64,000 nucleotides of DNA, taken from Nocardiopsis flavescens. Its GTDB lineage: Bacteria > Actinomycetota > Actinomycetes > Streptosporangiales > Streptosporangiaceae. Every line of letters begins with the position of its first letter. Positions within the stretch are counted from its first letter, which is position 1. Below, piece after piece: positions 52,178-64,000 of this stretch. The position numbers and the translations under genes were made by a program. The notes beneath the pieces are model-generated. The model saw only the letters and a list, made by a program, of their open reading frames with translations. It did no database searches and was not told where the DNA came from. The stretch spans positions 186,001-250,000 of the forward strand of contig NZ_FQZK01000003.1 of the NCBI RefSeq assembly GCF_900141985.1, in the 5' to 3' direction.

Positions 52178-52251
52178 GCGTTCTGTTTCCGGCCTTGTTC
52201 TCCAGAGGAAACGGACCTTCTCCGGGCATCGAGCACGCACCCCAAGGGACT

Positions 52252-52283
52252 ACACTTAGTGTTCAATCGTTCACTAAAAGTGT
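52252..52283. promoter_or_regulatory. Operator-like dyad upstream of polysaccharide locus
   Basis: TTAGTG, ten nt, CACTAA with flanking ACACT and AGTGT (the flank offset by two nt). It lies in an AT-richer patch 134 nt before the first gene of the locus. Confidence 0.55.
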
Positions 52284-52416
52284 CGACTCCCGGGGGCCGA
52301 GAACCCGGCCGCCCCCATGCCGCCACCCCGGCGGCGGGGGGAGCCGGCCCGCACCCGCCGCACGGCGTGGCCGATTCCCCGCACATCGAAGCCAGTGGCC
52401 TCTTCAGGAGGGTTTG

Positions 52417-54234
52417 ATGGACACCCCCGCCCCCGGATCACCCGGACCGGAACTCAAGGAGTACACCGCGCTGCTGCGCCGCCGCTGGCGGCCGGTGGCC
52501 GCCGGGGTGCTCGGCGGCGCGGCCCTGGCCCTGGCCGGGGTGTTCGCGGTGCCCTCCGCCTACACCTCCACGGCCGCCGTCCAGGTACTGCCGACCGGGA
52601 TGGCCGAGTTCACCGGCGAGCGGTCCGGCCGCCTGGCGGGCGACGTGAACCTCGACACCGAGGCGCAGGTGCTGCGCTCGGAGGAGGTCTCCGCCGCGGC
52701 GGCCGAACTCGCCGCCGAGGCCACCGGTTCCCCCGCCACCGCCGACGACCTGCGCGAGAACGTCGACGTCACCGTCCCCTCCAACAGCAACGTGCTGGAG
52801 ATCCACTACACCGCGGGCTCCCCCGAGGCCGCCCGGGCCGGGGCCGACGCCTACTCCCGGGCCTACCTCGGGCAGCGGGCCGAACGCGTGGACGGCCTCA
52901 TCGGCGCCCACCTGGAGGCGCTGCGCGGCGAGCGTGAGCGCCTGGAGGAGGAGCTGGGCGGGGTGTCCGGCGGCGCCGCGTCCGCCGACCCCCGCGCCGA
53001 GGTCCTGCGCCAGGAGGCCACCGCGCTGGGCGGGGGCATCGCACCGCTCGCCGCGCTGCGCGGGACCGTCGAGACCGGCCGGGTGATCACCCCGGCCGAC
53101 CTGCCCGAGCGGGCCTCCTCCCCCAACCCGCCGCTGTGGCTGGCCGCGGGCACCGCCCTGGGCCTGCTGGCCGGGCTGGGCGCGGCCGTGGTCCGCGACC
53201 GCCTGGACCGGCGCCTGCACGACACCGAGGAGACCGGGCGCCTGAGCGGCCTGCCCGTGCTGCTCGACCTGTCCTCCTGCGCGCCGCAGCGCGGGGGGCG
53301 CACCCCCGGCCTGCTCGGGGAGAACGAGACCGGCGGCCAGCGGGTCCAGTCCCTGGTCCACCTGGTCCGCGCCCGCGGCGCCGGCCCGGGCGGCTCCGTA
53401 CGGCCCCCGGCCGCCGCGGACGGGACCGCCGCGGACGGGGAGGGCCCGCGGGCGGGCCGCGTGCTCGTGGTCGCGGCCACCACGCCCGGCCGGTCCGGAA
53501 CCGCCGCCGCGGTGAACGTCGCCGCGGCCCTGGCCCGGACGGGTTCGGAGACGCTGCTGGTGTGCGCCGACCCGCGGTCCGACACCGTGGGCGAGCTGCT
53601 GGGCCTGCCCGAGGGCCCCGGCCTGGCCGAGGCCCTGGTCGACGGCGAGGACCCCGGCGACCTGGAGGTGCGCCCGGAGGCGGCCCCCCGGTTGCGGGTG
53701 CTGCGCCACGGGCGGCCGGGGGCTGCCGCACCGGTGCAGGACACCGCGATGGGCGACCTGCTGGGACTGCTGCGCGAGCAGGCCGACCACATCGTGGTCG
53801 CGGTGCCGCCGCCCGGCGAGCGCGCCGACGTGCACGCCGTGGCCGGCGCCGCCGACCTCGTGCTCCCGGTCGTCGAGCTGGGCCGCACCCTCCGCGCCGA
53901 CCTGGCCGACCTGCTCGCCGTCGCCGACCGGTTCGCGCTGGAGGCCCCCGGCGTGATCGTGCTGCCCCGGCAGCCGCTGCCCGGCCCGCTCCCCGAACTC
54001 GCCCCCGCGGGCGGGGCCCCGTCCGCGCCCCGGCGGACCACCTCCGGAGTCGTCCGGGCGGACGGGGACCCGCAGGAGAAGGCGGAGAAGGAGCAGGACC
54101 CGCAGGAAGCGGAGGACGCGCAGGACGCGCAGGACGCGGAGGAGGCCGGCCGCGACGGGGCCGCGGAGCCCGGCGAGGCCGGGGACGGCGAGACCGTCGT
54201 GGTGCCCGCCGACGTCGCCGGGGCGCGGCGCTGA
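52417..54234 (+). CDS. Wzz/BY-kinase-like polysaccharide co-polymerase with degenerate P-loop
   Basis: A 605-residue chain-length determinant-like protein. Wzz features: first helix about residues 26-48, long extracytoplasmic coiled-coil part, second helix about 245-265, then a cytoplasmic CpsD/ParA-like domain (about 345-530). The Walker A equivalent ATTPGRSGTAAAVN lacks the GK[ST] lysine, and the second Asp motif reads CADPRSD, so ATP use and autophosphorylation are doubtful. The C-terminus is a Glu/Asp/Gln tract with DAQDAQDAEEA. AGGAGGG fixes the ATG. It opens the exopolysaccharide operon and overlaps the polymerase gene (TGATG). Confidence 0.85.
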   Translation: MDTPAPGSPGPELKEYTALLRRRWRPVAAGVLGGAALALAGVFAVPSAYTSTAAVQVLPTGMAEFTGERSGRLAGDVNLDTEAQVLRSEEVSAAAAELAAEATGSPATADDLRENVDVTVPSNSNVLEIHYTAGSPEAARAGADAYSRAYLGQRAERVDGLIGAHLEALRGERERLEEELGGVSGGAASADPRAEVLRQEATALGGGIAPLAALRGTVETGRVITPADLPERASSPNPPLWLAAGTALGLLAGLGAAVVRDRLDRRLHDTEETGRLSGLPVLLDLSSCAPQRGGRTPGLLGENETGGQRVQSLVHLVRARGAGPGGSVRPPAAADGTAADGEGPRAGRVLVVAATTPGRSGTAAAVNVAAALARTGSETLLVCADPRSDTVGELLGLPEGPGLAEALVDGEDPGDLEVRPEAAPRLRVLRHGRPGAAAPVQDTAMGDLLGLLREQADHIVVAVPPPGERADVHAVAGAADLVLPVVELGRTLRADLADLLAVADRFALEAPGVIVLPRQPLPGPLPELAPAGGAPSAPRRTTSGVVRADGDPQEKAEKEQDPQEAEDAQDAQDAEEAGRDGAAEPGEAGDGETVVVPADVAGARR

Positions 54235-55625
54235 TGGCGCGGGGCCCCGCGGCGGCCGGGACCGGCGCGGCCGTGCCCGTCACCGCGGGCCCGGCCCCGT
54301 CCTCCGGGCGCCCGCTGCTGTGGCTGCTGGCGGGCTACCCGGTGTGGTGGGCGCTGGGCCTGGGCCAGTTCGCCTACTGGGTGTTCGCCGTCCCGATGGC
54401 CGTGGAGCTGGTGCGCCGCCACCGGACGGTCGGCCTGCGGGTGCCCCCGGCGTTCTGGCTGTGGGCGCTGTTCCTGGTGTGGTCGGTGCTGGGCCTGGCC
54501 GTGGTCCCGCTGGAGATGCCGGGCACCGTCCCGGACAGCGGCGGCTACGGCGGGGCCGTGCTCCGGGTCGTCAACTACCTGGTGCTGACGGTGCTGCTGC
54601 TGTACGCGGGCAACCTGACCAAGCGCGAGCTGCCCACCCGCGCGGTGGTGGCGGCGCTGACGGTGCTGGGCCTGGCCACGATCGCCGGCGGGTACCTGGG
54701 GATGCTCGCGCCGCGGTTCGAGTTCACCGCGCCGCTGGAGTACCTGCTGCCCGGCGGGCTGGCCTCCGACCCGTTCATGAAGACCCTCATCCACCCGGCG
54801 TCCGCGCAGGTGATGGACATCTTCGGGTACGACTCGGCGCGCCCCAAGGCGCCCTGGGAGTACACCAACGTGTGGGGGTACATGATCTCCCTGCTGCTGG
54901 TGTGGGCCGCCGTGCTCGTCCTCGGCCGCGCGGGCGCTCCGCCGTGGGTGCGCTGGGGCCTGCCCGTGGCCATGCTGCTGGCGGTGGTGCCCGTCGTGCA
55001 CTCGCTCAACCGGGCGCTGTGGGTGGGGCTGGCGCTGTCACTGCTCTACGCGGGGTTCGCGGCGCTGCGCCGGGGGCGGGTGCTGCCGGTGGCGGTGTGC
55101 GCGCTGGTCGCGGTGCTGGCCCTGGGGGTGCTGGCGCTGTCCCCGCTGGCCGACGTGGTGCGGGCGCGGGCCGACGCCCCGCACAGCGACGACGGGCGGG
55201 CAGCGACCAACGCGGCGTCGGTGGCCGCCGCCGACCTGTCGCCGGTGCTGGGCTGGGGCACCACCCGGGAGACCCTGGGCAGCTCCGACTCCATCGCGAT
55301 CGGCCCCTCCGCCGAGTGCCCCGGCTGCGGCCAGCACGTGATCGGCAACGCGGGCCAGCTGTGGATGACACTCGTCGCGAGCGGGTGGGTGGGCACGGCC
55401 CTGTTCCTGGGCTTCTTCGCGGCGGTGGCCTGGCGGTACCGGTCCGCGGTGACGCCCGCGGGCCAGGGCGCCCTGCTCACCGTGCTGCTGCTCTTCTGGT
55501 ACATGTTCTTCTACGTCGCGCTCATGTCTCCGCTGGCCGTGACCATGGTGGCCGTCGCCCTGCTGTGGCGGGACGAGGAGCCCCTGCTCCGCCGCGGGAC
55601 CGCGCACGGGCGGGGGTCCCGATGA
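54234..55625 (+). CDS. O-antigen polymerase/ligase-like membrane protein
   Basis: A 463-residue polytopic protein with about 11 helices, consistent with a Wzy polymerase or O-antigen ligase. Between helices lie a loop with RPKAPWEYTNVWGYMISL and a large extracytoplasmic loop with DDGRAATNAASVAAAD and WGTTRETLG, the sort of Arg-containing periplasmic loop used by this family, plus CPGC whose pair could form a disulfide. It starts within the stop of the preceding gene (TGATG). In this locus it would join repeat units exported by the flippase. Confidence 0.8.
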   Translation: MARGPAAAGTGAAVPVTAGPAPSSGRPLLWLLAGYPVWWALGLGQFAYWVFAVPMAVELVRRHRTVGLRVPPAFWLWALFLVWSVLGLAVVPLEMPGTVPDSGGYGGAVLRVVNYLVLTVLLLYAGNLTKRELPTRAVVAALTVLGLATIAGGYLGMLAPRFEFTAPLEYLLPGGLASDPFMKTLIHPASAQVMDIFGYDSARPKAPWEYTNVWGYMISLLLVWAAVLVLGRAGAPPWVRWGLPVAMLLAVVPVVHSLNRALWVGLALSLLYAGFAALRRGRVLPVAVCALVAVLALGVLALSPLADVVRARADAPHSDDGRAATNAASVAAADLSPVLGWGTTRETLGSSDSIAIGPSAECPGCGQHVIGNAGQLWMTLVASGWVGTALFLGFFAAVAWRYRSAVTPAGQGALLTVLLLFWYMFFYVALMSPLAVTMVAVALLWRDEEPLLRRGTAHGRGSR

Positions 55626-56839
55626 ACGGTGAGACGACCTATCTGACAGACCTGGCGGCGGTGCTGTGGCCGTGCGGGGGGCTGCTGGGGCACGGCCCCG
55701 GCCCCGCCCGCGGGCGGGGCCGGGGCAACCAGTACCTGCCGGTGCCCAGCGCCTGCGACCCGCGGGTGATCCTGCCCGCGCACAACCGGTCGGCGGCCAC
55801 CCGGGGCATCGCGTCCTTCTCCCAGGGGCACTCCCTGCGGGAGCGGCTGCGCAAACTGCTGCTGACCGGGGCGTTCGCCTCGGGGATGGCCCCGCTGCTG
55901 CTGCGCGACCGCCTGTACGTGGGCGCCGGTCCGGGCATCGAGCACGCGCTCGCGGCGGCGCTGGACCGCGAGCTGGCCATCGCCATCCACGTGGGGCCGC
56001 CGCGGGCCAACCGCAAGCCGGTCCTGCTGCTGCTCACCCCGGGCGGGCGGACCATCGGCTACGCCAAGGTCGCCGTGAACGACCTGACCGGGCGGCTGGT
56101 GGTGGCCGAGGCGCGGGCGCTGCGCCTGCTGGCCGACCACCGGCTGCGCGACGTCACCGTGCCCCGGCTGATGTACCAGGGCGAGTGGAACGGCCGCCCG
56201 CTGCTGGTGCAGGAGGCGCTGCCGGTGGGCGACCAGACCGACCGGCCCACCCGGCGCCAGCTGCTGCGCTGCGTCGCCCAGATCACCTCCCTGGTGGAGG
56301 TGCGCCGGCGCCGCCTGTCGGCGAGCACGTACCGCGGCGCCCTGGAGGAGCGGATCGCCGCACTGGGCGCGCGTCCGGAGGCGGGGCCGCTGATGGCTGC
56401 GCTGCACGGCCTGCCGGACGTGTCCCTGCCCTTCGGCGCCTGGCACGGGGACCTGACCCGGTGGAACATCGCCGGGACCGCGCGCCGCTCGTTCGTGTGG
56501 GACTGGGAGCGCCTGTCGCTGGACGCGCCCGCCGGGTTCGACGCCCTCCACTACGACCTCAACGAGTCCGTGCAGGCGGGGGTGCACCCCGGGGTGCACC
56601 GGTGGCTGGAGAGCGGCGCCCGGCTGCTGCGCGACCCGCTCATGGCCGAGCTGGGACTGGCAGCGCACACCGTGTCCACGGTGATGGCCCTCTACCTCAT
56701 CGACCTGGCCACCCGCTACCTGCACGACCGCCAGGACGAGATCGGCGTCCACCTGGCCGCGGTCGACGACTGGCTGCTGCCCGCCCTGGAGGGCCTCCAG
56801 GAGCGGGCGGCGCACGAGGCCGCCCGCGCCGGCGGCTGA
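55622..56839 (+). CDS. Choline/aminoglycoside-kinase-fold phosphotransferase in polysaccharide locus
   Basis: A 405-residue protein with a kinase-like fold: catalytic loop HGDLTRWNIAG near residue 275 (His-x-Asp-x4-Asn) and metal-binding WDWERLSLDAPAGFDALHYD. An N-terminal part with RANRKPVLLLLTPGGRTIGYAKVAV holds the ATP-binding Lys. It could add a phosphate or phospho-substituent to a sugar or alcohol precursor of the glycan. It overlaps the polymerase gene by 4 nt (ATGA), tying it to the pathway. Substrate unknown. Confidence 0.8.
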   Translation: MNGETTYLTDLAAVLWPCGGLLGHGPGPARGRGRGNQYLPVPSACDPRVILPAHNRSAATRGIASFSQGHSLRERLRKLLLTGAFASGMAPLLLRDRLYVGAGPGIEHALAAALDRELAIAIHVGPPRANRKPVLLLLTPGGRTIGYAKVAVNDLTGRLVVAEARALRLLADHRLRDVTVPRLMYQGEWNGRPLLVQEALPVGDQTDRPTRRQLLRCVAQITSLVEVRRRRLSASTYRGALEERIAALGARPEAGPLMAALHGLPDVSLPFGAWHGDLTRWNIAGTARRSFVWDWERLSLDAPAGFDALHYDLNESVQAGVHPGVHRWLESGARLLRDPLMAELGLAAHTVSTVMALYLIDLATRYLHDRQDEIGVHLAAVDDWLLPALEGLQERAAHEAARAGG

Positions 56840-56967
56840 GCCGTGCCCTCCCGGGCCCCCGCCCCGTTCCGCCCCGTCCCCCGCCCGCAACCGCCCCCGA
56901 GCGAACCGAGCCCGCACCGTCCGACGCATGTCCAACCCTGGAACCCGGAAACGACGAGGTCGATGTG

Positions 56968-57846
56968 ATGCCGCAGCGCACAGCAACCCTGCCGCGACGA
57001 CTGGCCGCGCCGGCCCGGCGGGCGGTCCTCCCGCTCGTCGACGCGCTGGGAACGGTCACCGGGCCCGCCCGGGCCCTGCCCGACTTCCTGATCTGCGGCG
57101 CGCAGCGCAGCGGGACGACGTCGCTGTTCAAGTCCCTGTCGGGGAACCCGGCCGCCACCGGTCCGGTGCTGCGCAAGGGGGTGCACTTCTTCGACACCGC
57201 CCACCACCGGGGGACGGCGTGGTACCGGTCGCACTTCCCGCTGCGGCTGTCGCTGCGGGAGCGTCCGGGGCGGCCCCGGGTGCGGGCGTTCGAGTCCAGC
57301 CCCTACTACCTGTTCCACCCGCTGGCGGCCGAGCGGATCGCCCGCGACCTGCCGGGGGTGCGGGTGGTGGTGATCCTGCGCGACCCGGTGGAGCGGGCGT
57401 ACTCGGCGCACGCGCACGAGACGGCGCGCGGGTTCGAGACCGAGCCCTTCGCGCGGGCGGTGGAGCTGGAGGAGTCGCGCCTGGCCGGGGAGGAGGAGAA
57501 GCTGCTCTCCGAGCCGGGCTATGTGTCCCACTCCCACCAGCACCACGGGTACATCGCCCGGGGCCGCTACGCGGACCAGCTGGAGCGGATGGAGGGGCAC
57601 CTGGGCCGGGACCGGATGTACGTGGCGGACTACGCCGAGCTGTTCGACGGGACCGTCGGCGAACTGCGGCGGATCGAGGACTTCCTGGGACTGCCGCCGG
57701 GGCCGGACCGGGTGCCGGGGCGGCACAACGCGCGCGGGCGGGCGGCGATGCCCGAGGCGCTGCGGGCCGAGCTGGCGGAGCGGTTCGCCGAGAGCGACCG
57801 GCGGCTGGCCCGGTGGTGGGGGCGGACCCCGTCGTGGTGCGCGTGA
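56968..57846 (+). CDS. PAPS-dependent sulfotransferase
   Basis: A 292-residue sulfotransferase. The 5'-phosphosulfate loop GAQRSGTTSLFKS is at residues 44-56, KGVHFFD follows, and the 3'-phosphate motif VILRDPVERAYSAHAH is near 137. The type resembles carbohydrate (heparan N-/O-) sulfotransferases. It should transfer sulfate from PAPS to the glycan made by the surrounding genes. The ATG is chosen for GAGG about eight nt upstream. It follows the phosphotransferase after 128 nt, the one real gap early in the locus, and overlaps the flippase gene. Confidence 0.9.
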   Translation: MPQRTATLPRRLAAPARRAVLPLVDALGTVTGPARALPDFLICGAQRSGTTSLFKSLSGNPAATGPVLRKGVHFFDTAHHRGTAWYRSHFPLRLSLRERPGRPRVRAFESSPYYLFHPLAAERIARDLPGVRVVVILRDPVERAYSAHAHETARGFETEPFARAVELEESRLAGEEEKLLSEPGYVSHSHQHHGYIARGRYADQLERMEGHLGRDRMYVADYAELFDGTVGELRRIEDFLGLPPGPDRVPGRHNARGRAAMPEALRAELAERFAESDRRLARWWGRTPSWCA

Positions 57847-59375
57847 CCGAGGTAGCGGAGCGGGGGAACCCGGGGCTGCGCCGCGTACTGCGGGGCGGCG
57901 CGGTCAACATGGCGGGCGCGGTGGTGGGGGCCGGGCTCAACCTGGCCCTGATCGTGGCGATCACGCGGGCCTTCTCCCAGGAGGCGGCGGGGCTGCTGTT
58001 CTCCGCGACGTCGGTGTTCCTCATCGCGGCGGCGGTGGCGAACGTGGGGGCGCCGGACGGGCTGGTGTACTTCATCGCCCGGCTGCGGGTGCTGGGCCGG
58101 GCGGGCGCGGTGCCGCGGCTGGTGCGGCTGGCGACGGTCCCGGCGGTGCTGGTGTCCTGCGGGGCGGCGGTGCTGATGGCGGCGTTCGCCGGGCCGATGG
58201 CCGACGCGCTGGGGACCGACGACGCCGCGGTGTACCTGCGGCTGCTGGCGGTGTTCCTGCCGTGCGCGGTGCTGCTGGACACGGCCCTGGCGGCGACCCG
58301 GGCGCACCACGCGATGGCGGCGACGGCGCTGCTGGACAAGGTGGGGCGGCCGCTGGCGCAGGTGGGTCTGGTGGCGGCGATGGCGCTGTCGGGTTCGGCG
58401 GGGATGCTGGCGCTGGCGTGGGCGGGGCCGTACCTGCCCGCGGCGGTGCTGGCGTGGTTCTGGCTGGGGCGGATCCTGCGCCGCGGGGCTCCGGGGGAGG
58501 CGGCGGGCGCGGGGGCCCCGTCGGCTCCCCCGGCGGGGCCGGACGCGGGGTACGCGTCCGGCCCCGAGCCGGTCTCCCCCGCCGAGTTCTGGTCGTTCTC
58601 GCTGCCGCGCGCGGTGGCGGGGGTGGCGCAGATGGGGGTGCAGCGCGGAGGCGTGGTGCTGACCGCGCTGCTGGGCGGGCTGACCGGCGCCGCGGTGTTC
58701 ACGGCGGCGACCCGGGTGATGGTGGTCGGGCAGTTCGGGGCGCAGACGGTGCTGTCCGCGGCGCAGCCGCGGTTCGCCGAGCAGCTGGCCACCGGAGACC
58801 ACGACGGGGTGCGCGCCCTGTACACGGCTGGGTCGTCGTGGCTGATGTGCCTGACCTGGCCGCTGTACCTGACCGCGCTGGTCTTCGCACCCGAGGTGAT
58901 GGGGGTGTTCGGCGCGGACTACGCGGCGGGGGCGGACGCCCTGGTCGTGATCTGCGCCGGGCAGCTGGCGGCGTCGCTGCTGGGGATGGGCGACCTGATC
59001 CTGACGATGACGGGGCGCACGGGCGCGAACCTGTTCAACAACCTGCTGGCGCTGGCGGTGAGCGTGGGCGGGTGCCTGCTGCTGGTCCCGGCCGCGGGGG
59101 CGGTGGGCGGCGCTCTGGCGCTGGTGGCGGCGGTGCTGGTGCGCAAGGCGCTGCCGCTGTGGCAGCTGCGGTCGCACGTGGTCCTGCGCCCGCTGGGGCG
59201 GCCGGTGCTGGTCGCGGCGGGCGGGTGCCTGCTGTGGTTCGGCGCCCTGCCGCTGGCGGCGGAGCGGGTCCTGGGCGAGGGCCTCCCCGCCCTGGCCCTG
59301 GCGGTCGTCGCGGGCTCCGCGGGTCACCTGGCGACCGTGTGGGCCTGCCGGGGCCCCCTGGGGCTGCGCACCTGA
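57843..59375 (+). CDS. Wzx-like polysaccharide flippase (MOP superfamily)
   Basis: A 510-residue protein with about 14 helices, beginning VLRGGAVNMAGAVVGAGLNL, a pattern seen at the start of lipid-linked oligosaccharide flippases. A Pro/Ala/Gly-rich loop (about residues 218-245) separates the two halves; the second starts FWSFSLPRAVAGVAQMGVQRG. It would flip the undecaprenyl-linked repeat unit across the membrane. The GTG start overlaps the sulfotransferase stop (GTGA). Confidence 0.9.
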   Translation: MTEVAERGNPGLRRVLRGGAVNMAGAVVGAGLNLALIVAITRAFSQEAAGLLFSATSVFLIAAAVANVGAPDGLVYFIARLRVLGRAGAVPRLVRLATVPAVLVSCGAAVLMAAFAGPMADALGTDDAAVYLRLLAVFLPCAVLLDTALAATRAHHAMAATALLDKVGRPLAQVGLVAAMALSGSAGMLALAWAGPYLPAAVLAWFWLGRILRRGAPGEAAGAGAPSAPPAGPDAGYASGPEPVSPAEFWSFSLPRAVAGVAQMGVQRGGVVLTALLGGLTGAAVFTAATRVMVVGQFGAQTVLSAAQPRFAEQLATGDHDGVRALYTAGSSWLMCLTWPLYLTALVFAPEVMGVFGADYAAGADALVVICAGQLAASLLGMGDLILTMTGRTGANLFNNLLALAVSVGGCLLLVPAAGAVGGALALVAAVLVRKALPLWQLRSHVVLRPLGRPVLVAAGGCLLWFGALPLAAERVLGEGLPALALAVVAGSAGHLATVWACRGPLGLRT

Positions 59376-59389
59376 CCGATGAATACACA

Positions 59390-59409
59390 GAGTCATGAGA
59401 TGATGACTC
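59390..59409. promoter_or_regulatory. Perfect dyad abutting the pssD-like start
   Basis: GAGTCAT, spacer GAGATG, ATGACTC, ending two nt before the ATG at 59411. It is either an operator or a hairpin hiding the start codon of the glycosyltransferase pair. Confidence 0.55.
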
Positions 59410-59410
59410 C

Positions 59411-59869
59411 ATGTCTTCGCGACCGGTTCTCCTGGTGGCCTCCAACGGGGGGCACCTCGCCCAGCTGTGCGCGCTCCGCCCCTGGTGGGAGGGGCGCGAG
59501 CGGGCCTGGGTGACCTTCCGGACCCCGGACGCCGAGTCCGCCCTGGCGGGCGAGCGCGTCCACTGGGCGTACCACCCGACCACCCGCAACGCGGGCAACC
59601 TCCTGCGCAACACGGGGCTGGCCGCCCGGGTGCTGCGCGCCGAGCGGCCCGCCGCGGTCGTGACCACGGGCGCGGGCGTGGCGCTGCCGTTCTTCGCCCT
59701 GGGGCGGCTGAGCCGCGTCCCGACCGTCTACATCGAGGTCTACGACCGGATCGACACCCCCACGCTCACCGCCCGGCTGTGCCGCCCCTTCACCCGCCTG
59801 TCCCTCGCCCAGTGGGAGGAGCAGCGCGCCTTCATGCCGACCGCCATCACCGTAGGACCTCTCCTGTGA
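59411..59869 (+). CDS. PssD/Alg14-like glycosyltransferase anchor subunit
   Basis: A 152-residue protein matching the PssD/Alg14 family: ASNGGHLAQL at the N-terminus, then VVTTGAGVALPFFALGRL and YIEVYDRIDTPTLTARL. In two-part transferases this subunit recruits the catalytic partner to the membrane lipid acceptor. The partner (PssE/Alg13-like) is the next gene, which starts inside this stop (GTGA). The domain is about the usual length for PssD. A palindrome sits directly in front of the ATG. Confidence 0.87.
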   Translation: MSSRPVLLVASNGGHLAQLCALRPWWEGRERAWVTFRTPDAESALAGERVHWAYHPTTRNAGNLLRNTGLAARVLRAERPAAVVTTGAGVALPFFALGRLSRVPTVYIEVYDRIDTPTLTARLCRPFTRLSLAQWEEQRAFMPTAITVGPLL

Positions 59870-61377
59870 CCGAACAGACCACCCGCCCTGCACCCCGGCC
59901 CGACGGCAGCGACCACCCCGACGTGGTCGTCAGCATCGGGACCGACCACCACGCGTTCGACCGGCTCGTGCGCTGGATCGACGACTACGCCCTGGCCCGC
60001 CGGGACCTGAGGATCCTGGTGCAGCACGGGCACAGCGCGGCCCCCGAGGTCGCCTCGGGCACACCGTTCCTGCCGGGCGAGGACCTGGGCGGGCTCATGG
60101 GGGCGGCGCGCGTCGTCGTCACCCACGGGGGGCCCGGGACGATCGTCCAGGCCCGCCGGGCGGGGAGGCTGCCGGTGGTGGTGCCGCGCGACCCCGAGCT
60201 GGGAGAGCACGTCGACGACCACCAGCTGCTGTTCGTGTCCCGGCTCCAGGAGGCGGGGCGGGTGCGGTCCTGCTCCAGCCCGCAGCAGCTGTACGCGCTG
60301 CTCGACCGCGCGCTGGCCGCGCCGGAGGACTTCCGGGTGGGCCCGGAGGACGACGAGGGGGCGGTGCGCTCGGCGCTGCGCGCGGGCGCGCTCATCGACC
60401 TCGTCGCCGACCGCGCCGGGCAGGACGCCCCCGCCGCCGAGCCCCGCCGGGACGGCGGCGAGGTGACGGAGTGGCCCGAGGTCACCGTGGTGGTCCCCAC
60501 CCGGGACCGGCCCGAGCTGCTGCGCCGCACCCTGCGCGCCGTCTCCGAGCAGGACTACCCCGGCACCATCACGACGATCGTGGTCTACGACAACGACCAG
60601 CCCGACCCGTCCCTGGCCCGCGGGGAGGGCGGCCGGCCGGTCCGGGTGGTCACCAACACCCTGACCCCCGGCCTGGCGGGCGCCCGCAACACCGGCGTGC
60701 TGGCGGCGCACACGGACCTGGTGGCCTTCTGCGACGACGACGACACCTGGATGCCCGGCAAGCTGCGCGCCCAGGTGCGGGTGATGCTGGAGGAGCCGGG
60801 GACGGACATGGTGTGCTGCGGGATCACCGTGGTGTACGACAAGGTGGAGGCGGTGCGGACCCTGGACCGCACCAGCGTCAGCTTCGGGGACCTGCTGGGG
60901 TCGCGGCTGACGGAGCTGCACCCGTCCACGTTCCTGATCCGGCGGCGGGCGATGATCGACGGCTGCGGGACGGTGAGCGAGGAGATCCCGGGCAGCTACG
61001 CCGAGGACTACGAGCTGCTGCTGCGCCTGGCCCGGCGCGGCCCCATCCGCAACATCCCGGAGACGGGCGTGCGGGTGCTGTGGCACCGGCGCTCGCACTT
61101 CTCCGGGCGCTGGCAGACGATCTCGACGGCGCTGCGCTGGCTGCTGGAGCGCTACCCGGAGTTCCGCCTGGTCCCGCGCGGCCACGCCCGCGTCGCCGGA
61201 CAGATCGCGTTCGCCGAGGCGTCCGCGGGGCACCGCCGGGCCGCGCTGCGCTGGATCGGCACCACCGTGCGCACCCGGCCCACCGAGGCCCGCGCCTATC
61301 TGGCCCTGCTGGTGGTCCTGGGCGTTCCTCCGGGCTGGGTCACGCGCGCCCTGCACCTGCGCGGCAAGGGCCTCTGA
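59866..61377 (+). CDS. PssE/Alg13-like transferase fused to family 2 glycosyltransferase
   Basis: A 503-residue fusion. Residues 20-175 are PssE/Alg13-like: VVVSIGTDHHAFDRLVRWI, the UDP-sugar motif VVTHGGPGTIVQARRAG and ELGEHVDDHQ. After an acidic linker (about 176-202), residues 203-503 form a GT-A glycosyltransferase with VTVVVPTRDRPELLRRTL, the metal-binding FCDDDDTW near 290, and EDYELLLRLARRG. No stop separates the parts; an internal GTG at about 60463 could also give the GT2 part alone. With PssD it would add two sugars in succession. Confidence 0.86.
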   Translation: MTEQTTRPAPRPDGSDHPDVVVSIGTDHHAFDRLVRWIDDYALARRDLRILVQHGHSAAPEVASGTPFLPGEDLGGLMGAARVVVTHGGPGTIVQARRAGRLPVVVPRDPELGEHVDDHQLLFVSRLQEAGRVRSCSSPQQLYALLDRALAAPEDFRVGPEDDEGAVRSALRAGALIDLVADRAGQDAPAAEPRRDGGEVTEWPEVTVVVPTRDRPELLRRTLRAVSEQDYPGTITTIVVYDNDQPDPSLARGEGGRPVRVVTNTLTPGLAGARNTGVLAAHTDLVAFCDDDDTWMPGKLRAQVRVMLEEPGTDMVCCGITVVYDKVEAVRTLDRTSVSFGDLLGSRLTELHPSTFLIRRRAMIDGCGTVSEEIPGSYAEDYELLLRLARRGPIRNIPETGVRVLWHRRSHFSGRWQTISTALRWLLERYPEFRLVPRGHARVAGQIAFAEASAGHRRAALRWIGTTVRTRPTEARAYLALLVVLGVPPGWVTRALHLRGKGL

Positions 61378-61744: not shown

Positions 61745-62353
61745 ATGGAACCGACACCACCGGAGGGCCTCGGCAGCCGCGACAGGATCCTGTGGGCGGC
61801 GGCGACGATGCTGGGCGAGGGTCCCGGCGCGATCCTCAGCGTGCGCAACATCGCCGCGCGGGCCGGTGTGAGCCCTGGGTCGCTGCGCCACCACTTCCCC
61901 ACGCAGCGCGCCCTGATGGACACGGTCCTGCCCCTGGTCTACGACATGGTGCTCCCCGAGGACAGCGTCCACGACTCCTCGCTCCCGGCCCGGGACCGGC
62001 TCGTCGCCCGCCTGCGGCGGCTGCTCGCGCCCACCGGCGCCGGCGCCGACCCACGGGAGTCCTGGCGCCTGGCCTTCGAGCGGTACGTCGACCCCGAGCC
62101 GACGGAGGCGGTGCGGGAGGAGTACCTGGCCCTGGAGCGGGAGATGGCCCGCCGCGTCGAGTCCTGCCTGGCGGTCCTCCAGAACGAGGGCGCCCTCCCC
62201 GAGGGGGACACCCACCGCCGGGTGAGGTTCCTGATGACCGTGGTCAACGGGCTCTCCATTGCCCAGGCACTGCCCGCGGACGCGTCCCTGCCGCGGACGG
62301 AGACCGAGGTGCTGAACGCCGCCGCCGACGCCGTTCTCACGGGCGGCGTCTGA
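61745..62353 (+). CDS. TetR-family regulator
   Basis: A 202-residue TetR-type repressor. The N-terminal HTH (about residues 12-58) has SRDRILWAAATML, LSVRNIAARAGVSPGSLRHHFP and TQRALMDTVL. The C-terminal ligand-binding half is helical and resembles BetI-like TetR_C members. GCGAGGGAAGG precedes the ATG. A perfect dyad at 61707-61721 lies in its promoter. It is convergent with the membrane protein gene. Confidence 0.92.
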   Translation: MEPTPPEGLGSRDRILWAAATMLGEGPGAILSVRNIAARAGVSPGSLRHHFPTQRALMDTVLPLVYDMVLPEDSVHDSSLPARDRLVARLRRLLAPTGAGADPRESWRLAFERYVDPEPTEAVREEYLALEREMARRVESCLAVLQNEGALPEGDTHRRVRFLMTVVNGLSIAQALPADASLPRTETEVLNAAADAVLTGGV

Positions 62354-62384
62354 GGACCGGCCGCGGGCCCGTGCCCGGCGCCGG

Positions 62385-62954
62385 TCATGACGCCTTCCTT
62401 CGCAGCAGGGCGCCCAGACGGAGGGCGGAGACCAGGAAGAAGACACCGCCGACGGCGGCGTAGCCGCCGACCCCCGCGATGTCGCCGGAGCCCTGGAGGC
62501 CCTGGGCCAGGAAGGCGCCGCCGGCCAGGACGGAGATGCCGCCGCTGAGGATCTGCGGCACCTGGCCGCCGGAGCGCCGCCGCCGGACCGCGGCGACCAG
62601 CTGGGGGATGCCCGAGCCCACGGCCCAGGCGCCCCAGACGGCGAGGGCGGCGGCGGGGGACACCGTGGACGCCCAGCCGAGCGCGACGGCCACGGCCGCG
62701 CTGACCGCCACGTTGACCCGTTCCGCCGCGCGCGGCGAGGCGGGATCGCGGTGCCGGGACCGGAGCTGCCACAGGACGGCGGCGGCGTCGAAGAGCGGGT
62801 AGGCGACCAGGAGCGCGGTGAGCACCGGCCCCGCGGCCCCCGCCGTCGCGAACACCAGCACCGCCCAGGCGAGGGCGAAGGCGAAGCGGACGAAGTACAG
62901 GCGGCGCAGCGCCTCGCCGAACCGCGTCGGCGCGGTCGTGTCGGACACGGTCAT
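62385..62954 (-). CDS. Six-helix membrane protein (DUF308/HdeD-like)
   Basis: A 189-residue protein with about six hydrophobic segments arranged in pairs, for example FAFALAWAVLVFATAG, PVLTALLVAYPLFDAAAVLW and AVGGVFFLVSALRLGALL. Spacing and length resemble DUF308/HdeD-like proteins, but I am not certain of the family. GGAGAG six nt before the ATG sets the start. It is divergent from a TetR gene with a dyad between them, so it is the likely target of that repressor. Confidence 0.8.
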   Translation of the reverse strand: MTVSDTTAPTRFGEALRRLYFVRFAFALAWAVLVFATAGAAGPVLTALLVAYPLFDAAAVLWQLRSRHRDPASPRAAERVNVAVSAAVAVALGWASTVSPAAALAVWGAWAVGSGIPQLVAAVRRRRSGGQVPQILSGGISVLAGGAFLAQGLQGSGDIAGVGGYAAVGGVFFLVSALRLGALLRRKAS

Positions 62955-63032
62955 GGGTTCTCTCCTGGGAAAGGTCGGGCCGTGGCGGCGGTGTACAGGG
63001 GCGCGGACATCGTGCCTCCTCGACCGCTTCAA

Positions 63033-63056
63033 TGTAGAGTTACTAGTTCGTCTACA
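63033..63056. promoter_or_regulatory. TetR operator candidate, divergent promoter
   Basis: TGTAGA, a 12-nt spacer, TCTACA, in an AT-richer patch between the membrane protein gene and the divergent TetR gene. A wider TAGAGT/ACTCTA pair flanks its right side. Confidence 0.6.
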
Positions 63057-63122
63057 TCGACGACTCTAGACTCGTCCCAGCGCCGGTGCAACCGGTCGGA
63101 CGAAAAGAGGGGGACGGCAGAC

Positions 63123-63731
63123 ATGCACGCCGAGACGACCGAACCGGCGAAGCGCAGGCCGTCGGGGGCCGCGACGAGGGCGCGCATCCTCACCGCCGCG
63201 AACGAGCTGTTCTACGCCCAGGGCATCCGGGCGACGAGCGCCGACCGCATCATCGAGCAGGTGGGCGTCACGAAGGTGACGTTCTACCGCCACTTCCGGA
63301 CCAAGGGCGACCTCGTGGTCGCCTACCTGGAGGAACAGGCCGCGGCGGAACGCCGGTGGCTGGCGGGCGCGCGCCGCGAGGGCGACCCGGCGGGGTCGCT
63401 GCGCGCCCTGGCCACCGACATCGGTGCGGCCAGTTGCAGCCCGGGGTTCCGGGGGTGCGCGTTCATCAACGCGGCGGCGGAGTTCTCCGACCCGGAGGAC
63501 CCGGTGCGGGCCGCGGTCGACGCGCACCGCGCGTGGATGCTCGGCGAGTTCGCGGACATCGCGGCGCAGGCGGGCGTGCGGAACGTGGACGCCGTCGCGC
63601 GGCAGCTGATGATCCTGCGCGACGGGGCGATGGTGAACGGCTACCTCGGGGAGGCGGAGACCGTCGCGGACTCCCTGGCGGCCGCGTTCACCTCGATCCT
63701 CGCGGCGCCGGGCGGAGCCTCCCCCCGCTGA
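63123..63731 (+). CDS. TetR-family regulator (LmrA/YxaF-like)
   Basis: A 202-residue repressor. The HTH (about residues 15-62) reads ATRARILTAANELFYAQGI, then ADRIIEQVGVTKVTFYRHF and RTKGDLVVAYLE. The C-terminal part with SPGFRGCAFINAAAEF is typical of the LmrA/YxaF group, which control small membrane or efflux proteins. It is divergent from the six-helix membrane protein across 168 nt with a clear dyad. A classical U-tract terminator follows. Confidence 0.92.
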   Translation: MHAETTEPAKRRPSGAATRARILTAANELFYAQGIRATSADRIIEQVGVTKVTFYRHFRTKGDLVVAYLEEQAAAERRWLAGARREGDPAGSLRALATDIGAASCSPGFRGCAFINAAAEFSDPEDPVRAAVDAHRAWMLGEFADIAAQAGVRNVDAVARQLMILRDGAMVNGYLGEAETVADSLAAAFTSILAAPGGASPR

Positions 63732-63763
63732 ACCCCGCCACGGCGGCCCGCACGCGCCCCGGA

Positions 63764-63795
63764 CCCCGACCTGGAATTCCAGGTCGGGGTTTTTT
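63764..63795 (+). terminator. Intrinsic terminator with U-tract
   Basis: CCCCGACCTGGAA is followed directly by its exact complement and then six T. A full Rho-independent terminator, rare in this GC-rich window. Confidence 0.9.
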
Positions 63796-64000
63796 CCCTT
63801 GCCTATGACCCGATAAGTACTTTTAGCGAAGACAAAAGGAAAAATTCCCGACCCCATTCCCACCTGCGAGAACACCGAACCGAAAAGATTCCCCGGCACG
63901 ACCGAAGAACAACCGGACCTATCGTCTTTCCCATCGCGGATCTCTGTCCGACAACCGAAAGCAGAGACCCCGGTGTCCGGGGCCGTAGCGGTGGTTCACC
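63796..64000. other. AT-richer region at window edge, no gene seen
   Basis: The last 205 nt are clearly less GC-rich than the coding DNA, with A-rich runs (AAAAGGAAAAA near 63835). No open frame with a start and ribosome-binding site is visible. It probably holds the promoter of a gene beyond the window or is a boundary. Confidence 0.5.

Follow-up and report, generated by a model that had tools for sequence, protein, structure and literature searches.

The seven genes at positions 52417-61377 of the window, i.e., of the whole 64,000-nucleotide stretch of Nocardiopsis flavescens DNA that was analysed, are the left half of a chromosomal locus of about 14 genes which is conserved in the Nocardiopsis family. 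Judged from its gene content, this locus very probably specifies a sulfated Wzx/Wzy-type exopolysaccharide made by both of its operons. An earlier note on this DNA had proposed an exopolysaccharide, probably sulfated; the proposal is supported by an adjoining initiating transferase (PGT), ATP sulfurylase, PAP phosphatase and second sulfotransferase, and by an APS kinase in the genome. To our knowledge, sulfated polysaccharides are rare in bacteria and unproven in actinomycetes. Our literature search retrieved no measured sulfated polymer for any actinomycete with this locus and no report on sulfated exopolysaccharides in Nocardiopsis. Since one vertically conserved locus provides two sulfotransferases together with sulfate activation, chain initiation and polymer assembly, the question is open to gene deletion and sulfate assay.

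All seven open reading frames were confirmed on the plus strand at the positions previously given, and all have Pfam matches: Wzz, Wzy_C, APH, Sulfotransfer_1/3, Polysacc_synt, Alg14, and Glyco_tran_28_C plus GT2. Their codon-position GC is actinomycete-like. Four of the six junctions overlap, co-polymerase/polymerase by 1 nt and polymerase/kinase, sulfotransferase/flippase and PssD/PssE by 4 nt each, the flippase starting with GTG at 57843; gaps of 128 nt (kinase to sulfotransferase) and 35 nt (flippase to PssD) separate the others. The Wzz, Wzy_C, Polysacc_synt and Alg14 scores are slightly under the curated Pfam cut-offs. We uphold these assignments because of the hydrophobic segments, the NCBIfam matches for PssD/PssE and the co-polymerase, and the position kept in related loci. 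The description as a compact locus covered only half of what is there. The other half is a convergent operon just beyond the window edge, GH26-ST2-subtilase-CysN-CysD-CysQ-PGT, located on the minus strand at 252398-261142 of contig C53 (genome G000), 2.4-11.1 kb past the window end. The two-operon layout is intact in 32/32 Nocardiopsaceae loci with contigs spanning both operons; two loci (L091, L092) which ended at or missed the locus were left out of the counts. Conservation in 37 genomes rules out chance, and loci with the same gene content recur across many actinomycete families.

The first gene (52417-54234, plus strand) encodes a Wzz-type co-polymerase (Pfam Wzz, E 3e-5; NCBIfam eps_transp_fam, E 2e-18) with a degenerate BY-kinase-like domain. 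Its Walker A motif reads TTPGRSGTAAAVN, with the Lys replaced, and the final 120 residues contain no Tyr; an active BY-kinase of the Wzc/CapB kind was rejected on account of the degenerate Walker A and the absent C-terminal Tyr cluster. The Wzy-type polymerase (54234-55625, plus strand; Wzy_C, E 7e-7, just below cut-off) has about 12 hydrophobic segments and is 57-91% identical to its counterparts in relatives. The Wzx-type flippase (57843-59375, plus strand; Polysacc_synt, E 2e-4, below cut-off) has about 14-16 such segments. A PssD/Cps14F-like, i.e., Alg14-like, glycosyltransferase subunit (59411-59869, plus strand; NCBIfam PssD, E 2e-26) is followed by a PssE/Cps14G-like, i.e., Alg13-like, catalytic subunit (59866-61377, plus strand; Glyco_tran_28_C plus GT2; NCBIfam PssE, E 4e-18). 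The two-part architecture is that of PssD/PssE and Cps14F/Cps14G; unlike these, PssE is fused to GT2, and both NCBIfam scores are below their cut-offs. Because of the scores and the fusion, linkage and sugar cannot be read from the likeness. In several loci outside the Nocardiopsaceae PssE and GT2 are separate genes.

The earlier note had correctly stated that no PGT is in the window, but this is solely so since the window ends. A genome search for an initiating transferase and PAPS synthesis genes, as the note had recommended, retrieved PGT, ATP sulfurylase and APS kinase. The PGT (Bac_transf, PF02397) belongs to the facing operon, 12.3 kb beyond the last of the seven genes, is the only PF02397 gene of the genome, and has a single match in each of 37 relatives; a missing initiating transferase is thus ruled out. 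With PGT, Wzx, Wzy, PCP and glycosyltransferases all present, the Wzx/Wzy-dependent set is assembled, the Wzx, Wzy and Wzz Pfam scores being slightly below cut-offs.

The sequences themselves give gene content, families, conserved linkage and co-loss, and show that CysD, APS kinase and PGT each occur once; enzyme activities, step order, sugar identity and the role of the kinase we infer. The PGT would put a sugar-1-phosphate onto undecaprenyl phosphate, and PssD-PssE with the fused GT2 domain would lengthen the lipid-linked sugar to roughly a trisaccharide. The suggestion that few transferases imply a simple repeat unit fits, because PGT, PssDE and GT2, the transferases of the locus, would account for about three sugars, although others may be encoded elsewhere. 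The two locus sulfotransferases, ST1 and ST2, would add sulfate from PAPS, before or after flipping. Wzx would flip the repeat unit, Wzy would polymerise it under the Wzz-type co-polymerase, and GH26 of the facing operon, which is secreted, would trim the polymer. CysD-CysN would generate APS, the single APS kinase encoded elsewhere would convert it to PAPS, and CysQ would destroy the by-product PAP.

The closest studied relative of the locus, compared via its published gene list, is the wps-1 cluster of Actinoplanes missouriensis, whose product was predicted to be a sulfated polysaccharide and whose genes were tested by deletion (Tezuka and Ohnishi, 2026, PMC13390465). wps-1 is required for normal sporangia; deletion of wps-1 genes, including wpsH, the ST1 counterpart, resulted in deformed sporangia and less spore release, and wpsD was dispensable (PMC13390465). 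Deletion of the adjoining Sat/APS-kinase gene AMIS_7390 caused the same defects, a phenotype called 'unexpected' (PMC13390465); PAPS supply is its likely explanation. The contiguous order Wzz (WpsK), Wzy (WpsJ), kinase-like protein (WpsI), heparan-sulfate-type sulfotransferase (WpsH) and Wzx (WpsG) is common to both, as are a second sulfotransferase (WpsB), a GH26 (WpsE) and a GT2 (WpsA). Unlike wps-1, the Nocardiopsis locus has PssD and PssE-GT2 in place of a GT2 and GT26 pair, and it holds PGT and CysQ-CysD-CysN as a convergent operon, with the Sat-like/APS-kinase fusion on another contig. Scanning the genes of both operons with Pfam gave no hit to the wps-1 accessories GT26, methyltransferase and DUF4262; therefore we call the Nocardiopsis locus a variant and not the same cluster. 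Further, Nocardiopsis forms spore chains, not sporangia. The following is new with respect to wps-1: sulfate activation and the PGT belong to the locus itself, PAPS supply would explain AMIS_7390, and the kinase outlives the polymer machinery. The idea of an undescribed surface polymer thus holds for the chemistry, not for the kind of locus, which is already known from wps-1 (PMC13390465).

A sulfated polymer has been chemically demonstrated for synechan, product of the xss cluster of Synechocystis PCC 6803 (PMC8205485). Like the Nocardiopsis locus, xss encodes two sulfotransferases, each from another family, alongside a Wzx/Wzy/PCP pathway; it differs in having eight glycosyltransferases, a plasmid location and outer-membrane export (PMC8205485). 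We claim no orthology. As the Nocardiopsis locus does not have such a large set of glycosyltransferases, it would work like xss rather than belong to it.

Gram-positive Wzx/Wzy products are often anchored to the wall. This favors a variant compatible with the main explanation, namely that the same reactions yield not a released exopolysaccharide but a cell-bound sulfated glycan, either wall-attached and teichuronic acid-like or lipid-linked. The proposed placement of the wps-1 product in the sporangium matrix points in the same direction (PMC13390465). Against it, the scan of the genes in both operons brought up no dedicated wall ligase, and we regard a cell-bound product as the less probable outcome, although one to be reckoned with.

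The view that the polymer is sulfated depends on the acceptors of ST1 and ST2. ST1 (56968-57846, plus strand; Sulfotransfer_1/3) is of the heparan-sulfate type. By sequence its best solved relatives are 3rnl and the heparan sulfate 3-O-sulfotransferases; the best Foldseek matches of its predicted fold are 3rnl, 3-OST-1 and NDST. It has the 5'-PSB and 3'-PB motifs for PAPS, a Glu aligned to the catalytic glutamate of 3-OST, and the invariant motifs QR-GTT, ESSPYY and LRDPV-RA. Sequence motifs and predicted fold are common to ST1 and the 3-O- and N-sulfotransferases (3-OST, NDST); unlike these, ST1, at about 22% identity, has no Golgi anchor, and a heparan backbone is not implied. A shared fold is no proof of a glycan acceptor, and a sugar acceptor is putative. 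Sulfotransferase families have many acceptors; mycobacterial and nodulation sulfotransferases act on non-polysaccharide targets. ST2 matches solved enzymes only weakly, and further sulfotransferase genes are present elsewhere in the genome. Conceivably, then, the polysaccharide is made while the sulfotransferases modify a glycolipid, a small molecule or a protein. We consider this unlikely: ST1 is nearest in sequence and fold to polysaccharide-acting enzymes, it is located within the polymer operon of relatives, and the equivalent deletion in A. missouriensis, that of wpsH, copies the polymerase deletion (PMC13390465). Moreover, in four genomes devoid of any PF02397 PGT the polymerase, flippase, ST1, ST2 and GH26 are jointly absent from the readable part of the locus. 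These natural losses are ready-made controls.

The facing operon encodes both ATP-sulfurylase subunits, CysD and CysN, and CysQ, which is similar to a known PAP phosphatase. CysD is single-copy and adjoins the PGT in 35/35 genomes checked. Exactly one APS kinase is present in the genome, as a Sat-like/APS-kinase fusion on contig C50; in several sister-genus and other loci this fusion is adjacent to or near the locus. Its Sat-like domain was considered as a second ATP sulfurylase; the score is weak, the HxxH/GRDHAG-like motifs look degraded, and it is probably inactive. CysH has CC and CxxC pairs, as Fe-S APS reductases typically do. With this reductase-like CysH and a single APS kinase, the genome probably provides PAPS chiefly for sulfotransfer. 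CysDN is the sole clear ATP sulfurylase of the genome, hence assimilation also explains CysDN, which is not a dedicated device. One might go further and see in CysQ-CysD-CysN ordinary assimilation genes beside an exopolysaccharide locus whose polymer is un- or incidentally sulfated. CysD is single-copy per genome, and CysNDQ is kept in all three PGT-less genomes with a full contig, as assimilation predicts. This reading is nevertheless very unlikely: it leaves unexplained two conserved locus sulfotransferases as well as a PAP phosphatase and APS kinase alongside an APS-reductase-like CysH, and the conserved CysD-PGT adjacency suggests co-regulation. Likely, CysQ-CysD-CysN serve both assimilation and sulfation. 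A generic secondary-metabolite sulfotransferase was rejected as first choice, since locus conservation, fold and co-loss argue against it.

The APH-fold kinase (55622-56839, plus strand) scores above the Pfam cut-off, and HGDLTRWN and WDWE are invariant in 20 orthologues. Its fold is near choline kinase, APH and FN3K; as many small-molecule kinases are structural neighbours at similar Z, no substrate can be named, and a PDB sequence search gave no useful match. ST1 is within 10 kb of the kinase in 62 of 66 kinase-bearing genomes; the family accompanies the sulfotransferase across the actinomycete class. The kinase is kept at the locus in the four PGT-less genomes; beside CysNDQ it is intact and under purifying selection even in lineages where the PGT, the polymerase, the flippase and the two sulfotransferases of the locus are gone. 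Tentatively, the kinase may not merely modify the glycan but possibly have a second conserved role, e.g., in sulfate/PAPS metabolism or regulation, which links sulfur activation to polymer making.

Upstream of the co-polymerase (52243-52288, plus strand) is a promoter-proximal element, CAAGGGACTACACTTAGT-N12-ACTAAAAGTG, with a putative -10 (TACACT) and an operator-like dyad. At up to 3 mismatches it occurs once genome-wide, and a reversed-pattern control yielded 0. The examined loci of the Nocardiopsis type have it ahead of the co-polymerase gene, whereas it is degenerate in sister genera. It is a candidate promoter/operator. A nearby TetR gene was rejected as its regulator because the flanking insert of TetR is strain-specific (tetRa only in L016 and L067), whereas the element is conserved.

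Seven forward-strand ORFs (window 52417-61377), with overlaps at four of their six junctions, are flanked by the purN/purH region on one side and by a strain-specific insert on the other. The window corresponds to positions 186001-250000 of contig C53 (genome G000); adding 186000 to a window position gives the contig position. Pfam and NCBIfam assignments bear out the seven-gene locus described in an earlier note: a Wzz-type co-polymerase (52417-54234), a Wzy_C-type membrane protein as polymerase, an APH-fold kinase (55622-56839), the sulfotransferase ST1, a polysaccharide flippase, a PssD/Alg14-like protein and a PssE/Alg13-like protein fused to GT2. The Wzz, Wzy_C, Polysacc_synt and Alg14 scores are slightly below the curated Pfam cut-offs; hydrophobicity and conservation back these assignments. 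The BY-kinase-like domain of the co-polymerase has neither the Walker A lysine nor a tyrosine tail, a degeneration which recurs in most orthologues whose motif can be read. Upstream of the co-polymerase, an AT-rich element of about 40 bp (52243-52288) with a TTAGT-N12-ACTAA dyad sits right behind a -10-like box, TACACT; it is kept at this place in Nocardiopsis loci and present once in this genome.

The claim that an initiating phosphoglycosyltransferase (PGT) is absent holds for the window, not for the genome. The genome search proposed with it has been run and returned a single PF02397 gene, 12.3 kb beyond the seven genes (contig C53, 259640-261142, reverse strand). It belongs to a facing operon in which, toward the polymer genes and likewise on the reverse strand of C53, follow CysQ (258845-259636), CysD (257852-258784), CysN (256507-257775), a subtilase (254750-255934), a second sulfotransferase, ST2 (253647-254570), and a GH26 hydrolase (252398-253525). 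This operon lies outside the window because a strain-specific insert of about 4-5 kb separates the two (window 61745-64000 on to position 1005 of neighbourhood L003). The insert holds two TetR-type genes, a membrane protein and one ORF without assignment; most relatives lack it, and Nocardiopsis sp. N85 (L016/L067) alone has a partial counterpart.

Scanning named genomes with the polymerase as query yielded 37 loci in Nocardiopsis, Streptomonospora, Marinactinospora and Marinitenerispora. Wherever contigs span both operons (32 of 32 loci), GH26, ST2, CysN, CysD, CysQ and PGT face the polymer operon. The PGT has a single match in each of the 37 genomes. CysD adjoins it and occurs once per genome in 35 of 35, although in one of them a contig end splits the gene. 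Since flanking genes are also conserved, with DUF4190 on the left in Nocardiopsis loci and, in many loci, peptidyl-tRNA hydrolase on the right, this is a core chromosomal locus, vertically kept. Records titled Glycomyces fuscus (L019, NYMS01000004.1) and Streptomonospora nanhaiensis (L050, NZ_CP113264.1) carry Nocardiopsis-like copies, with polymerase identities of 77-78%; their species labels may be wrong. The Marinitenerispora locus (L093:3632-7377) has extra genes between flippase and PssD, including an acyltransferase-3, possibly for further decoration.

Within the genus, the kinase profile (A1) matches 39 of 40 genomes, missing only a 970-contig assembly; in an even sample of the class it matches 66 of 394 genomes. 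ST1 lies within 10 kb of the kinase in 62 of these 66, mostly about 1 kb apart. Among 20 more distant neighbourhoods 19 combine kinase, polymerase and ST1, in several gene orders, usually with flippase, co-polymerase, PssD/PssE, GT2 and ST2; two (L129, L133) also possess ST2-CysN-CysD-CysQ-PGT facing the polymer genes. PssE and GT2 are separate genes in several distant loci, in some with ST2 between them; thus the fusion is probably derived.

A search for PAPS synthesis genes, also suggested earlier, succeeded. CysH is the sole other PF01507 gene of the genome, therefore the locus CysDN is its only clear ATP sulfurylase. The sole APS kinase is on contig C50 (L052:6926-8620), next to mfd-like and mazG-like genes; it is fused to a Sat-like domain that scores weakly and whose catalytic motifs seem degraded. 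Such a fusion is found in or close to the locus in a number of neighbourhoods from sister genera and from further afield (L039, L040, L045, L046, L049, L115-L118, L120), matching AMIS_7390 of Actinoplanes missouriensis, which adjoins the wps-1 cluster. CysH is nearest to 7lhr, and its CC and CxxC pairs are characteristic of [4Fe-4S] APS reductases. If it is such an enzyme, assimilation would probably use APS itself and PAPS would serve chiefly for sulfotransfer, but dual-specific CysH enzymes exist.

By sequence and by fold (AlphaFold model, pLDDT 84), the nearest solved structures to ST1 are the bacterial sulfotransferase 3rnl and heparan sulfate 3-O- and N-sulfotransferases. Across 17 orthologues its motifs QR-GTT, ESSPYY and LRDPV-RA show little or no variation, and the Glu of ESSPYY aligns with the Glu that acts as catalytic base in 3-OSTs. 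ST2 is a Sulfotransfer_3 protein.

The gene families and their linkage suggest a pathway, although its activities, step order and product are predictions. Assembly on undecaprenyl phosphate would proceed from PGT via PssDE to GT2, ST1 and ST2 would sulfate with PAPS as donor, Wzx would flip, and Wzy would polymerise under the kinase-degenerate Wzz-type co-polymerase; secreted GH26 may trim the product and CysQ remove PAP.

The closest known system is wps-1. According to published gene descriptions, WpsK-J-I-H-G correspond in the same order to co-polymerase, polymerase, kinase, ST1 and flippase, and WpsB, WpsE and WpsA to ST2, GH26 and GT2. Here, in contrast, PGT and CysQDN are inside the locus, PssD and PssE-GT2 replace GT2 and GT26, and the scanned genes of the two operons include no methyltransferase. 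Ours is therefore a variant of the wps-1 kind, not the same cluster. In A. missouriensis, each deletion of wpsA, C, G, H, I, J or K gave squashed sporangia, and that of AMIS_7390 'unexpectedly' a severe defect; the authors predict sulfation of the product without demonstrating it and, in the sections consulted, do not tie AMIS_7390 to PAPS supply (PMC13390465). Synechan is a chemically proven cyanobacterial analogue (PMC8205485).

Natural losses bear on the role of the sulfotransferases. ST1 is absent genome-wide from three genomes that match the kinase strongly (G137, G162, G098); these and G262, of another genus, have no PF02397 gene anywhere. In the readable part of the loss loci, polymerase, flippase, ST1, ST2, GH26 and PGT are missing (for ST2, in the surroundings of the locus). 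What remains is co-polymerase, kinase, subtilase and CysN-CysD-CysQ in G137, kinase, PssD, PssE-GT2 and CysNDQ in G098, and the APS-kinase fusion, kinase, PssE-GT2 and CysNDQ in G262; in G162 the contig stops just past the kinase. Loss of polymer genes and sulfotransferases as a set argues that the latter serve the polymer. A further use in assimilation would account for the survival of CysNDQ. Contrary to expectation, the kinase is kept (L136:8715-9938, L137:9006-10229, L138, L115), with intact catalytic motifs. Its dN/dS between G137 and G162 is 0.27, compared with 0.09-0.22 for intact-locus pairs; thus constraint on the kinase persists, though somewhat loosened.
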